NCBI GenBank assembly: GCA_001687465.1
Contig: LVLI01000190.1
Location: 1 to 64,000, forward strand
Origin: Halocafeteria seosinensis
Taxonomy: Eukaryota; Sar; Bigyra; Bicosoecida
Direction: 5' to 3'
Length of the DNA stretch: 64,000 nucleotides
Positions 15,315-24,008 of the stretch are shown piece after piece; the stretch's first letter is position 1, and every line of letters begins with the position of its first letter. Under the pieces are notes generated by a model, which saw only the letters and a list, made by a program, of their open reading frames with translations, did not search any database and was not told where the DNA came from. Position numbers and translations under genes: made by a program.

Positions 15315-16243
15315 TTAGCGCTGAGCTTGGCTGGACCGCGTTCTTGCAGGTTTCTTCGCACCTCCATGCTTCTCAGAAGCAGATCGCTTCCGTTTGGAGG
15401 TCGAAGTAGAGTTTCGCTTTGCCGCTTTCCCCTGTTTCTCATCTGGGCGCAAATATGCCTTGCGTTTGGATGCTGGCAATCGTTCAATGGAGTATCGGAG
15501 CATCACCCGCGGCATTACCCTACAGTGCTCGTCCAAGAATTCCTCAAGTTTTGACACATCCTTCTTGCCTACTTCGCGTAGCATCCAACCGCAGGCCTTG
15601 TGTATGAGATCATGCGTATCTTGGAGAAGCAATGCGGATATGCTTAGTGCATCCTCTAGGTCGCCTTTGCCGATGAAGTAGTGGGTGGACAGCATTCCGA
15701 TGCGTCTTTCCCAAAGGTCTTCAGATTTTGCAAGCCGATATAATACATCTCTAGATGATTTAGTTTCATACAACCAAGCTCCTACGATCTTGGGAGCTGT
15801 AGTATCCACCAGATCCCAATTATTGATGAATTTCGTGTGGTTCAAATAGAATTCATAGATCTCTTTTCTCTCCTGCTTGGATGCTCGAGGCCATCGGTAT
15901 ACTAGCACCAGGAGTGCTCCCAACCGCTCCTCGTGGTATTCCGACGAGAGCAATTTATCCACTTCGGAGAGCGACAACGATTCCACGAAGTCTTTCTGAG
16001 ATACGATCTTGCGGATCCATGGTACTCGAAGACCTGCAAACGAGAGAAGTACATGTATTTCGCTTCATGAGGTACAAGGCGATTCACTGAATACAATCTT
16101 GTCGCACCTAGGAATTTATCCCCTTCCGCGTATTGGCCCTTTGCCGTCTTGAAGAAACGCGAATAGAACGGAACGAGTTTGGAGTCGGCTACCTCTCGCA
16201 GTTTACCGCTGAGGTGTTTGGCAGTGATAGCTCGAGGCGCCAT
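15315..16243 (-). CDS. DNA alkylation repair protein, AlkD-like
   Basis: Two exons, 16243-16108 and 16033-15315, join in phase (KFLG joins LRVPWIRKIV). The first in-frame ATG gives MAPRAITAKHLSGKLREVAD. The sequence follows the ALK/HEAT-repeat family of DNA alkylation repair glycosylases (COG4912). It has the phrase FLGLRVPWIRKI, repeated helical pairs, NNWDLVDTTAPKIVGAWL and WERRIGMLSTHYFI. The Trp/Asp pair in NNWDLVD corresponds to the catalytic-face residues of the family. The last ~55 residues are Lys/Arg/Ser-rich and resemble a nuclear-localisation or DNA-binding tail not found in bacterial AlkD. The likely role is removal of alkylated purines in the nucleus. The function is inferred from family, with good motif agreement over the whole length. 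Confidence 0.85.
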
Positions 16244-16608: not shown

Positions 16609-19537
16609 CTATCCCTGTTCGTCGCCCTCATCGTCGTAATCTACTTCAGTCTTCTCTCCAAGACGAACCTTATAAGCCCATTCTTTCATATCATGTTTAA
16701 GTTTACGTTCGTCGATGGTAAGCAGATGCCGACCGGCAAGGAGTTGTGTCCCAGCCACCCATACATCAGTGACGCTGTACAGCAAAGCACATTGAGAAAG
16801 ACATCCACTATACTAATATGACAGTATAATGGCTTACCAGTGACGATCCATTGCGTAGACCAGATGGGAGATGACATTGTAAAGCGGCATCTGCTCCAAT
16901 CCATCTAGACGAACAGCAGTCATGTCCGCAAACTTTCCTATCTCCAAGGAGCCGGTATCTTTCTCTAGTCCCAGTGCCTTAGCGCCGTTGAGTGTTGCCA
17001 TTTTCAATACCTGCTCGTGTACATTAGAGGAGCGCCAGAAGACATAAAGTTATCAATAACACCAAACAACATCGGAATTGCCAAAGTAACATACATTGAA
17101 CGCAGGAGCGGCCGTGGCATCCTTGGAGACGCCCTTCGCTAGTATCGCCGCAAGCTTCATCTCTCCAAACATATCAAGACTGTTATTAGAAGCGCTTGAA
17201 TCTGCAAAATGGAAGAAGAAAGTCACCGGGACAGTTGGTCTTTGACACATAGAATTGACAACCATACCTGTCCCGATGGCGACGTTCACACCTGCTTTTT
17301 CTAACTCCCAAATAGGAGAGAATCCCGATGCCAATTTCATGTTGGACGAAGGGCAGTGCACAATATTGCAACCAGTTTCAGCAACCCGAGCAATTTCTTC
17401 CTCAGTTAACTGCATACAGTTTGATACAAACCGAGGGTTACCGTAAAAACTGCTCTGAATGAATGTGGAATAGGAGTCCATTCAGGACTATTAAAGCGTA
17501 CCTGAGTCATGTGTACTGCTATCATTCTACTAGTGATCAATCCTAGTTTGTCGAGGTTCTCAAATGGGCGGCATTTATTGTCACTGAGATGTTTCGATGG
17601 CCCGTCAATCCCCTCTGAAGACTCCCGGGTCTCTGATTCGGTTTCATGCAAATGAAGGTGGATGGGCACATCAAATCGTTCAGCAAGCTCCTTAACACGC
17701 AGAAAACTCTTTTCGCTGACTGTGTATGGAGCATGCGGTGCTATAGAAAATTGAATCCGTCCTGCGTTACGTAACTTCGAAAGAAGTAGCTGCCACGATC
17801 AATTCTTCCCTTAAGCGGATGGCTTACCTGTAGGGTCGCGCTTCTTCCAGTAACTACACAACTCCACTGCTTTATCGAGGCACTCTTCGGCATTCTGGGA
17901 ATCGGAAGTGGGGAACTCAATGCATACTGCGCCGACTCGGGCCCGAAGTCCCACTTCATACAATTCTTCAGCGACTGTCCCTCCAAAAAAATGCATGTCA
18001 TTAACGGTAGTAACCCCGCTGCGAATACACTCTGCAGCGGCGAATCGAGTACCATGAGAAGTGTACAAGGGCGATAGAAGCCTGGCTTCTGCAGGCCAAA
18101 TGTCCATCGTTAGCCATTCCATAAGCGGTTTGTCATCCGCGAGTCCACGCATGTTGTTTAGGGCCAGGTGCGTGTGTGCGTTGATTAGTCCCGGAATGAG
18201 AGCATGGTGGCTAAGGCGAACCGTGCGATGTGCCTGGTAGCGTTCGCTTACGTCAGCCGAAGGAAGGACGTCAACGATACGTCCTTCGCGAACGACTACA
18301 CAATGATTCTCCAAGGCTTTATTTTCGGGTTTTACCGGTACTACATAACTGCACGTATAGCCACCAAGGTTTGGTATCTTTTTACCACTGAGCTCTGTTT
18401 AGCCATCTCAGAGGTATATCACTTACTGAGCGTGTACGATTAGGTCAACAGTTTCAATTTTAGACTCTGATCGGCCGGTCGATCCGTCGGTGCTCTGTTC
18501 AACCTCTTTATACCGTTTAATCTCTTGGAATCTTGCGTATGACAGCGAGGCAAGCTTCGGTACGACGCTTCCGATAATCTGGAAGATCTTCGGGAGGTTT
18601 GTAGCTTGCGCCTTCTTGAAATCCGCAACGCTAAAATCCGTCGAAATTCCATGGGCATAGTTATCGACAACAGATACCATGGCGTATGGCAAGCCGACTT
18701 CTTGACAAGCTGAGGCTTCGTGAGCTCCCGTCATTCCAATTACATCACCAGCTTCGGCAAACATGCGAACTTCTGCTTTGGTTTCGAACCGTGGACCACG
18801 ACTGTTGACGTACACGCCTCCAGCATGAACTCCTATATTCAGCGATCCTAGTGCTTGTAGGAGATGCTTATGAAGGTCCCCGTCGATTTTAGGCATAAAG
18901 TGTCCCCGGTGGTCAGCATGGACTGCATTCGCACGAATGTAAGTGTCCGTCCAGTTAAAGCAACACTGCACAGAATCGACGTACCTGGCCGTGTATCATA
19001 GGGGCAATAGTAGTCATCTGGCAAAAGCACCGTCCCAAGGGCTAACCCGCTCTTGAGAGATCCTACTGAACAAATTCCAACCACATGTGTACAGCCCTGC
19101 AGACCAAATCGGGATCATCCAGTCCATCCGCTGTCCTGTCCTCAGGGCGGAAGTCGTACTGTACGTACCAGATGCTTGAGAGCAATGGCAATGGCCGAGT
19201 AGTTGATGTCGGCCGGTTGGGTGTAGCGCTCGCCGGCATTCGCTTCATGGCGCTGTGTAAACACTAAATTAACCTCTTCTTCCTGACTGCGTTCATTGGC
19301 CTTGATTACGCATGTTCTATACACCACCCTTCCCATGGGAGTCTCCACATCCTCGACGCGAGCCTTGCCGAGCGTCTGGGCTATCTCCTGCTCCTTGGGG
19401 GACGCCGAAACGGCGGTGTCCTGGAGATGTAGGAGACTACTACCGCCAATAATGCCCACCACGGGGCCTTGAGGCGCTACGATGGAGCCCGAGGAGCGTC
19501 TCCTGCTGCCTCGGGAGGATGAGTGAGAGTGAGACAT
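16609..19537 (-). CDS. Fused methylthioinosine phosphorylase-type / MTA-SAH deaminase
   Basis: Nine exons, all in phase: 19537-19169, 19096-18985, 18922-18427, 18348-17828, 17761-17502, 17409-17268, 17201-17095, 17010-16838 and 16774-16609; 781 residues. Residues 1-~318 are an MTAP/MTIP-family phosphorylase (VVGIIGGSSL, VNLVFTQRHEAN, GVYVNSRGPRFETKAE, VIGMTGAHEA). Residues ~319-781 are an MTA/SAH deaminase of the amidohydrolase superfamily: VDLIVHAHYVVPVKPENKAL, metal HTH at 384-386, HLHLHE at ~534-539, HCPSSNMKLASG, and metal Asp634 in IGTD. A consensus intron (18426-18349, GTAAGT…GCAG) removes the phosphorylase stop at 18423 and restores the typical deaminase N-terminus. The deaminase has no ATG of its own in phase. 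The loop VSVVDNYAHG has Asn248/Ala250 where human MTAP has Asp220/Asp222, suggesting 6-oxopurine use. Predicted path: methylthioadenosine to methylthioinosine to hypoxanthine plus methylthioribose-1-phosphate. Confidence 0.85.
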
Positions 19538-21807: not shown

Positions 21808-24008
21808 TCACCGGCATAGCTCAAACAGAGTCTGGAGCATTCTGACAAAGCCAGTTCCAGCACAAGAGGGCGGTCGCTGACTAACTTCTTGAATATCGTC
21901 ACTTGCAGCTTTGGGGCTGGTTTCGGAAGAGGTAGTTTTGACTCCAAAGGCGTCATACCCTCCCTTATCCGTGTACCTCCCATGGATTAGAACGGCCACG
22001 AAGACTAGGAATAGCGATACCAGCGTTATGTAGCCGAACGATGCTGGATTGGACACAATGACTCCCATTAATGGCTCGAGTAAACCAAAGAGCATGTTTA
22101 GACTGCTCTGTACGCCATTGATAGTACCGCGGCTTTGCCTGGGGACCGCTACCTGCAAGAGTTGGTTGACGGGTAGATCAAAGCCCCAAAGACCCCAGCG
22201 AGAAATGGAGACTCCTAGCATTAGCATTATCGATGCCCAAATGGGTACTCCATGCAAGGACTTTAGTTTTTCTGGTAATCCCGTCTGCTCAACTTTTGTA
22301 TCGCTGATGAACAGTCCCCCATAGAATTCTGGATCCAGCGTATATGGCACTATGGCCGTGCATAGGCTTACAGAGAGAAGCATTAGCCAAACTGCCAGCA
22401 GGGCTGCCCGATCGAGCCCCACCTTTCTCTTGAGACTGCAGTGCAAATACAGACGAAAAACAGCCGGACACAAGTATGAAACTGTTTGATGTTAGCAAAG
22501 AAGGAGAGAATAATATCCACGTACTATCTGAACGAAATTGTAGCCAAGATTCCAAAGACTGCTCCAAGCCCTCGGAAAATTGCAATGACGTAAGGTGGCA
22601 CACCAGCCCAATTCAGTACAACAGTCATAATGGAACCGAACTGAAGAACGGATACAAATAGGAGTGCAAGAGCCAGCCCAGCAGGCATTATCTTCTGCTT
22701 GGAATACACCGCCCAGCCATTTTTGAGATCTTTAAAGGGAGCCAATGCGAGGAACAGTGCTTTTCTGCAGTAACTTCGGGCAAGCTCAGTGGTTTCTGTT
22801 TCATCCGCTACTTCCTCTTCCTCTGCTTCTCCGTCCATTTGATCAGCTTCCTGTTGCTCAGCCTCTACCGCTATTATATCCTTATGCACTCTCGCAAGTA
22901 ACACATATTCAAAGTAAAGGGAACCCAAGTTGGATACCGCAATAAACAGAGCTCCTGTGATGACAGAGTGAGCAAACTACTTTTTTCCTGTACCAATATC
23001 AGTGGTAGCGCGACCACGCACCTCCGACAGTCGACCATGTAAGAACTAGCGATACAATGATGGGTGCTCCAATTTTGCATATCAGATCTATCCGTCTCAT
23101 GACACTATTCAATTCTGCACGATGCAAACTGCAATAGAGGGGAGGTCAATAAACGTTACCATCCTCTTCCCCTACCTGACAGAGCATCATCATCTCTTCC
23201 AGCAACAATAACAGCCCAATCTTTCTCTACGGCCACGTTGCTTCCGATAGTGGCGACTCTGTGTGTGTGCGAAGTCACCCGCATTATAGAAATAGGGAAC
23301 ACATGAATTAACGTCGTCGGCACCACTTACTTTGCAGTACATGCGAATAGAATAACGAGCACGGCCATGAGGCCGAATGGCGCTGTGAGGGTTGTCGAGT
23401 TAGCCTCTTCATCGTTGCTTTTGTTGTTCTGTTGGCGATTGCCTTCGTTGATCCAATACAGTAGAATCGAGCACAGTGCACTCAACGCAATTCCCGAGTT
23501 CTGTCCTAACAACGATCTCCGTACCACCGCTAGTCGGTCGTGTTTCATGTTATCTACCCACTTGCCAACGAGTCCCCCAAAGATCACTGCCGCCAATGTT
23601 TCAAAGAATGTAAAGACGGCTGGTAACAGAACCGATCCAGGCCAAGTTGCAGCCAGGATAAGAGCAGCTCCAAACTCCCACATTCTCCATCCAAAGGCAC
23701 TCATAAAATCTGCACACACACACACACACACCATACATACGTTTACGTGTCTTCATTTCTGTATGTATGTCTTCACAATTCCACCATCACCTACGACTGC
23801 AATACATCTTCCGTCGCGCCGCTCGTCTTCGTGGGGCGTTCCCCATTTGTAATGGAGCTGGTCCATGGTCCTCTGCGTCCGTATGAGTGCCTCCATCATC
23901 GTCATTATGGTCATTTCCGTCGTCTCCTGCTGAGGCGGCTTCATCGTCACTGAGCACTAGTTCATCATCATACTCCTCTTTTCCCGGGATTGTTGTCCTC
24001 TCTGCCAT
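21808..24008 (-). CDS. Ferroportin-like iron exporter (SLC40 family)
   Basis: Exons from 24008-23795 through 23709-23331 and four shorter ones to the stop at 21808 splice in phase. The N-terminus is acidic and hydrophilic. The membrane part starts CSHFMSAFGWRMWEFGAALI, matching the YLSxWGDRMW opening of ferroportins. Other matches are the loop EKDWAVIVAG, NSVMRRIDLICKIGAPIIV, NLGSLYFEYVLLARV and, in the last exon, SRWGLWGFDLPVNQLLQVAV followed by RGTINGVQSSLN. About a dozen hydrophobic segments are visible. An acidic linker (EAEEEEVADE) sits in the central cytosolic loop, where the animal protein also has a long loop. The expected role is Fe(II) export from the cytosol at the plasma membrane or an internal membrane. 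A (TG)n tract directly precedes the second exon's acceptor. Confidence 0.88.
23711..23732. repeat. (CA)n microsatellite in ferroportin intron 1
   Basis: About ten CA units. On the coding strand this is a (TG)n run that ends in the splice acceptor GCAG. Length variation could influence splicing. Confidence 0.85.

Follow-up and report, generated by a model that had tools for sequence, protein, structure and literature searches.

According to the available text of PMC6302742, Pseudomonas aeruginosa deaminates 5'-methylthioadenosine (MTA) to 5'-methylthioinosine (MTI), which then undergoes phosphorolysis to hypoxanthine and 5-methylthioribose-1-phosphate (MTR-1-P). Among eukaryotes, Plasmodium likewise converts MTA to hypoxanthine by way of MTI, using two enzymes, an adenosine deaminase (ADA) and a hexameric family-I purine nucleoside phosphorylase (PNP) (PMC3885546, available text). 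Fusions within methionine salvage have also been described: the available text of PMC2759508 reports MtnAK and MtnBD of Tetrahymena and MtnBC of Arabidopsis, as well as MtnAK in some stramenopiles and green algae, and it makes no mention of a phosphorylase-deaminase fusion, the word 'deaminase' occurring 0 times in its main text. The first-pass annotation of the locus discussed below knew of no described fusion of this pair, and we likewise found none in the available open full-text literature, outside of which most subscription journals lie.

We analyzed a window of 64,000 nucleotides (the whole stretch of DNA studied, positions 1 to 64,000 of Halocafeteria seosinensis contig LVLI01000190.1) containing a gene that joins a phosphorylase to an amidohydrolase. 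We consider it likely that the encoded protein is a bifunctional MTA-salvage enzyme, which would convert MTA to MTI and MTI to hypoxanthine and MTR-1-P in a single polypeptide. New here are a transcript proving the whole open reading frame (ORF), a wider spread of the fusion, a purine site resembling that of MTI phosphorylase (MTIP), the pathway genes in the genome, and a bacterial gene pair of the same order. The two reactions expected are the same as those of the Pseudomonas aeruginosa pair, although separate proteins are used there and one polypeptide here. We take the Pseudomonas MTA deaminase to be PA3170 and the MTIP to be PA3004, with structure 3OZB, and we assume that 4DYK and 4GBD come from this pair as well. 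Among solved structures, 3OZB was the best relative of the N-terminal half and 4DYK and 4GBD ranked third and fourth for the C-terminal half; however, the deaminase half was nearer to 4DZH than to 4DYK, and the phosphorylase half fell below the MTIP cut-off. As in Plasmodium, the route would run through MTI in a eukaryote, but it would rely on an MTA-deaminase-type amidohydrolase and an MTA phosphorylase (MTAP)-family phosphorylase rather than on ADA and a family-I PNP (PMC3885546, available text). Like MtnAK, MtnBD and MtnBC, the fusion joins steps of the methionine-salvage pathway, whereas those proteins join other, mostly later steps (PMC2759508, available text). The features of the locus are as follows.

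16609..19537, minus strand: whole fusion coding region; nine exons, 781 residues; once spliced, it translates to exactly the transcript ORF P0001
19169..19537, minus strand: exon 1, N-terminal part of the phosphorylase with the GGSS and QRH motifs (alignment, splice model)
18985..19096, minus strand: exon 2, phosphorylase (splice model)
18427..18922, minus strand: exon 3, C-terminal part of the phosphorylase with VVDNYAHG (Asn248, Ala250), the linker and the deaminase start VDLIVHA (alignments, splice model)
18349..18426, minus strand: 78-nt intron, GTAAGT...GTGCAG; absent from P0001; splicing it out fuses both enzymes and eliminates the stop at 18423
17828..18348, minus strand: exon 4, deaminase with the HTH metal motif (His384, His386) (alignments, splice model)
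17502..17761, minus strand: exon 5, deaminase with HxxE (His536, Glu539) and His583 (alignment, splice model)
17268..17409, minus strand: exon 6, deaminase; its last base opens the Asp634 codon, which is interrupted by the following intron (alignment, splice model)
17095..17201, minus strand: exon 7, deaminase; completes the Asp634 codon and contains the SSASNN region (alignment, splice model)
16838..17010, minus strand: exon 8, deaminase (splice model)
16609..16774, minus strand: exon 9, deaminase C-terminus and stop codon (splice model)

The gene model runs from a start at 19537 to a stop ending at 16609, its nine exons encoding 781 residues that comprise two complete domains, an MTAP/MTIP-type phosphorylase (residues 25-305) and an amidohydrolase (residues 321-775). 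All eight introns are of the GT...AG type and measure 62-92 nt in the model, which makes the junction intron unremarkable in both size and sites. The first-pass annotation had proposed that splicing from a GTAAGT donor at 18426 to a GCAG acceptor at 18349 removes 78 nt, bypasses the stop that the unspliced phosphorylase frame meets at 18423, and yields one protein of 781 residues containing both enzymes; each of these points was reproduced, with the acceptor reading GTGCAG and ending at 18349, and both domains were found in one transcript ORF. This ORF, P0001, a EukProt entry from TSA record GECG01002812.1 labeled 'type:complete', was the first match in a search that used the phosphorylase half as query and admitted only proteins 0.55 to 1.75 times the length of the fusion. 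Since its 781 residues are identical to the spliced model letter for letter (781/781), at least one assembled transcript has had the intron at 18426-18349 spliced out. The further claim that the deaminase has no in-phase start of its own also held: there is no Met from the upstream stop through the HTH motif, the first one lying beyond it in NNMRG, and thus a separate deaminase begun in this frame would be without its metal site. Likewise, the junction had been said to read into the usual start of bacterial MTA/S-adenosylhomocysteine (SAH) deaminases, and alignments with 4DZH, 4F0R and 4DYK indeed begin at residue 2 or 3 of the VDLIVHA piece. The next ORF downstream on the same strand (window positions 15315-16064, minus strand) matched the DNA alkylation repair enzyme family PF08713 with 185.3 bits.

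The phosphorylase half matched Pfam PNP_UDP_1 with 100.3 bits. Its closest solved relative was 3OZB (72.5 bits), named methylthioadenosine phosphorylase in the database, followed by archaeal-type MTAPs (67.4 bits and lower) and by 1CB0 (58.2 bits). We take 3OZB to be the Pseudomonas MTIP of Guan et al. 2011 and 1CB0 to be human MTAP. In MTAP, two Asp residues read the 6-amino group of the purine. Pairwise alignments placed the ATDYD of 1CB0 opposite VDNYA in the fusion and VVNPA in 3OZB, such that the 6-position of the purine would face Asn248 and Ala250 here, Asn and Ala in 3OZB, and Asp and Asp in 1CB0. In an alignment of 36 fused matches of our choosing (including P0001 and P0032), Asn248 was present in every one of the 36, and Ala250 occurred in 34, with Cys in its place in the remaining two. 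The GGSS and QRH motifs of exon 1 presumably form the phosphate site; Arg96 was found in 19 of the 19 rows with a residue there and His97 in 19 of 20, which is thinner evidence given that many rows do not extend to the N-terminal end. The half scored 95.9 bits against the MTIP model NF006599 (cut-off 223) and 127.7 bits against the MTAP model TIGR01694 (cut-off 274.85), and the latter model outscored the former for each of the three fused proteins that were scored (P0001, P0015 and P0003). Because both cut-offs were missed and the MTAP score was the higher, we call this half MTIP-like rather than a member of MTIP, and its predicted preference for MTI over MTA draws on the two residues Asn248 and Ala250 together with the logic of the pathway.

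The deaminase half (residues 321-775) exceeded the cut-off of NF006549, a model named only 'TRZ/ATZ family hydrolase', with 593.7 bits vs 540. It scored 224.2 bits against NF012037, named bifunctional MTA deaminase/SAH deaminase, below the cut-off of 779, and we therefore refer to it as MTA/SAH-deaminase-like rather than as a member of that equivalog. The score against the 5'-deoxyadenosine deaminase model was 318.9 bits, also below its cut-off of 522. The closest solved relatives were 4DZH (428.7 bits, named amidohydrolase), 4F0R (369.5), 4DYK (366.8) and 4GBD (366.2), with 4F0R, named 5-methylthioadenosine/S-adenosylhomocysteine deaminase, being the nearest relative so named among solved structures. 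Residues His384, His386, Glu413, His536, Glu539, His583 and Asp634 were invariant in all 36 aligned proteins; by analogy with TM0936-type enzymes, we assume that the set of HxH, HxxE, His and Asp comprises metal, catalytic and substrate residues. Taken together, these findings suggest an amidohydrolase close to MTA/SAH deaminases that is predicted to deaminate MTA.

The search for other fused homologues that the first-pass annotation had called for was successful: 29 of 32 matches (P0001 and P0032 included) carry both Pfam domains, the other three being oomycete predictions without the deaminase. A domain scan found that at least 49 of 261 proteins match both halves, a lower bound since the 261 were drawn from listed matches (e.g., the best 120 of at least 8000 candidates and the best 120 of 1150), and one in which P0001, some fragments and the doubtful P0032 are counted. 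The fusion is thus not confined to the Halocafeteria gene. The named fused source is Hondaea fermentalgiana (P0015; Stramenopiles, Bigyra, Thraustochytrida), and P0018 is a fused MMETSP/EukProt transcript; the remaining fused records are metagenomic or unlabeled. Among the matches listed, oomycetes contributed standalone phosphorylases (P0150, P0151 and P0153-P0155) and, from different species, standalone deaminases (P0050, P0118 and P0127). Four oomycete models (P0013, P0014, P0020 and P0052) are overlong or joined to unrelated domains, P0020 to a Rab-GAP TBC domain and P0052 to PF25766, PF08620 and PF08621, and perhaps represent merged neighboring genes. The Syntrophobacteraceae protein P0034 (923 aa), a bacterial amidohydrolase of about twice the usual length, may have arisen by tandem duplication of the deaminase domain.

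The one prokaryote-like match among the 32, P0032 (635 aa), was used as query in a scan of genome contigs that returned 57 loci. Eight of these (L014, L016-L021 and L064; titles include Solirubrobacterales and Conexibacter) matched both halves, and all eight are actinobacterial by title. In 8 of 8 the two genes are adjacent, with the phosphorylase first as in the fusion, and lie in different frames, indicating that these Actinobacteria possess the same two families in the same order but as separate proteins. The apparent bacterial fusion is doubtful in view of these relatives, and P0032 more probably reflects a frame error, or else an uncommon exception. The other 49 loci matched one half only, nearly all of them the deaminase in other phyla (the match being to the query alone, with flanks outside its cover); two further near relatives were among those with a single half, the deaminase at L015 and the phosphorylase at L057, where a contig ends. 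Adjacency in the same order at all eight loci supports a shared function of the two halves.

Phylogenetic trees of the deaminase half, which sampled top matches only, were built at two levels of care. The quick tree omitted the partial sequences P0017, P0024, P0143, P0145, P0160 and P0163 together with rows of <380 domain residues (among fused proteins, P0025 and P0028) and thinned the other standalone deaminases to one in three; the careful tree (50 rows) further omitted the long-branch P0032 and P0027, 12 fused and two oomycete rows, and the majority of the remaining standalone rows. In the careful tree, 19 standalone rows (8 named gammaproteobacteria and 11 unnamed) split off with support of 100/99 from 27 fused rows, two oomycete rows and the standalone ORFs P0044 and P0112, whose origin is unlabeled. 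Holding the 27 fused rows, P0044 and P0112 as one clade was not rejected (AU p = 0.261). Against a single clade, the label 'fused' required 4 changes on this tree, 2 of them forced by starred branches, and 0 of 200 bootstrap trees had the fused rows alone on one side, with P0044 placed among them. P0044 and the phosphorylase ORF P0142 sit on contigs of equal length (5836) and could be separate exons of a single fused gene. As for oomycete genes as a candidate unfused ancestor, the quick tree placed four oomycete deaminases among the fused rows and the careful tree left the position of its two oomycete rows without resolution. For the phosphorylase half, the tree omitted rows of <170 domain residues and retained one in three of the unnamed rows above P0205, with P0014 (Phytophthora) and P0153 (Aphanomyces) labeled 'other' in error; it separated a eukaryote-containing side from the other side with a weak support of 77 and required 8 changes in the label 'fused', 4 of them forced, and for these reasons the origin of this half was not placed. 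The data allow one old fusion that was later split in oomycetes, without proving it.

The source genome (30.6 Mb, 605 contigs) was searched for the surrounding pathway in frames read without splicing and with prokaryotic genomes as controls, so that its negatives are weak; intron-split genes can be missed, as happened with an APRT exon that was detected by the APRT model but not listed by PF00156. MtnA reached 370.4 bits when neighboring exons were included (cut-off 279). MtnB and MtnC lie in one 498-aa open frame above both curated cut-offs (L071 1432-2928; G000:C143, around 22784-23398), which constitutes a second fusion in methionine salvage here, like the plant MtnBC in the available text of PMC2759508. 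SAH hydrolase was present, as were two matches to Spermine_synt_N, a phosphorylase gene at C115 that we read as a PNP, an HGPRT-like exon (108.3 bits, cut-off 150) and an APRT-like exon that covered half of the model with 90.8 bits, below the cut-off of 185.85 as a single exon. The only PF01979 match outside the fusion gene was at C63. The six-frame search found no MTAP-type gene above the TIGR01694 cut-off and no adenosine deaminase (PF00962) in unspliced frames. Despite the presence of MtnA, MtnB and MtnC, it also found no acireductone dioxygenase (ARD, MtnD; PF03079), whose gene may be intron-split, missing or replaced; the pathway beyond MtnC is accordingly unproven.

In the reaction sequence that we propose, the C-terminal amidohydrolase half would deaminate MTA to MTI, and the N-terminal phosphorylase half would cleave MTI with phosphate to hypoxanthine and MTR-1-P. 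MTR-1-P would pass to MtnA and then to the MtnB-MtnC fusion, while hypoxanthine could possibly be taken up by the HGPRT-like enzyme. The function assigned in the first-pass annotation is very probably right; both activities and the order of the two reactions are inferred, as is any gain from joining them, for instance a fixed stoichiometry or MTI being handed over locally. The APRT-like exon counts against this reading, as adenine could also be salvaged, and because of it we rejected the notion that an inability to salvage adenine is the reason for producing hypoxanthine. The missed MTIP and MTAP cut-offs and the lack of an ARD match also weigh against it, and the score below the NF012037 cut-off lowers our confidence slightly.

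A general adenosine-nucleoside salvage enzyme, pairing a broader deaminase (for SAH, adenosine or 5'-deoxyadenosine) with a broad 6-oxopurine phosphorylase, is an unlikely alternative. The nearest named solved relative of the deaminase half is an MTA/SAH deaminase, the half obtains 318.9 bits from the 5'-deoxyadenosine deaminase model (cut-off 522), the six-frame search, which may miss split genes, did not find PF00962, and Methanocaldococcus MtiP acts on six purine nucleosides according to the available text of PMC6302742. However, SAH hydrolase is encoded in the same genome, and the separate PNP-like gene at C115 means that inosine may already have its enzyme. The higher scores of the MTAP model for P0001, P0015 and P0003 would fit a phosphorylase half that acts on MTA directly, with a deaminase half for another substrate joined to it only for co-expression. 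We consider this improbable, since the Asp/Asp pair of 1CB0 is replaced by Asn/Ala, as in 3OZB, with Asn in 36 of 36 proteins, and since joining such a phosphorylase to an MTA-deaminase-like half would make no plain metabolic sense.

Almost no weight attaches to the fusion being an annotation artefact, whether of two genes or of a usually retained intron that leaves a phosphorylase ending at 18423. The unspliced frame does stop there, and some retention of the intron may occur, the evidence being an assembled transcript rather than reads. That transcript is nevertheless complete and identical over 781 residues, the deaminase frame is without a usable start codon, and the 29 of 32 matches with both Pfam domains include the MMETSP transcript ORF P0018.

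Returning to the bifunctional MTA-salvage enzyme, we tentatively entertain a broader picture, itself rather doubtful, in which an ancient fused enzyme across Bigyra and related stramenopiles would be the sole MTA route there, MTI would be passed directly between the sites of one assembly and never accumulate, and the purine of MTA would exit as hypoxanthine rather than adenine. The fusion enlarges the set of methionine-salvage fusions (MtnAK, MtnBD and MtnBC), which are treated as evolutionary markers in the available text of PMC2759508. Fused in protists and adjacent as genes in Actinobacteria, the two halves are directly linked in function, and the protein offers a ready system in which to test substrate hand-over. 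If the predicted activities are correct, a bacterial-type detour of MTA salvage would be placed in a eukaryote lineage as one enzyme.
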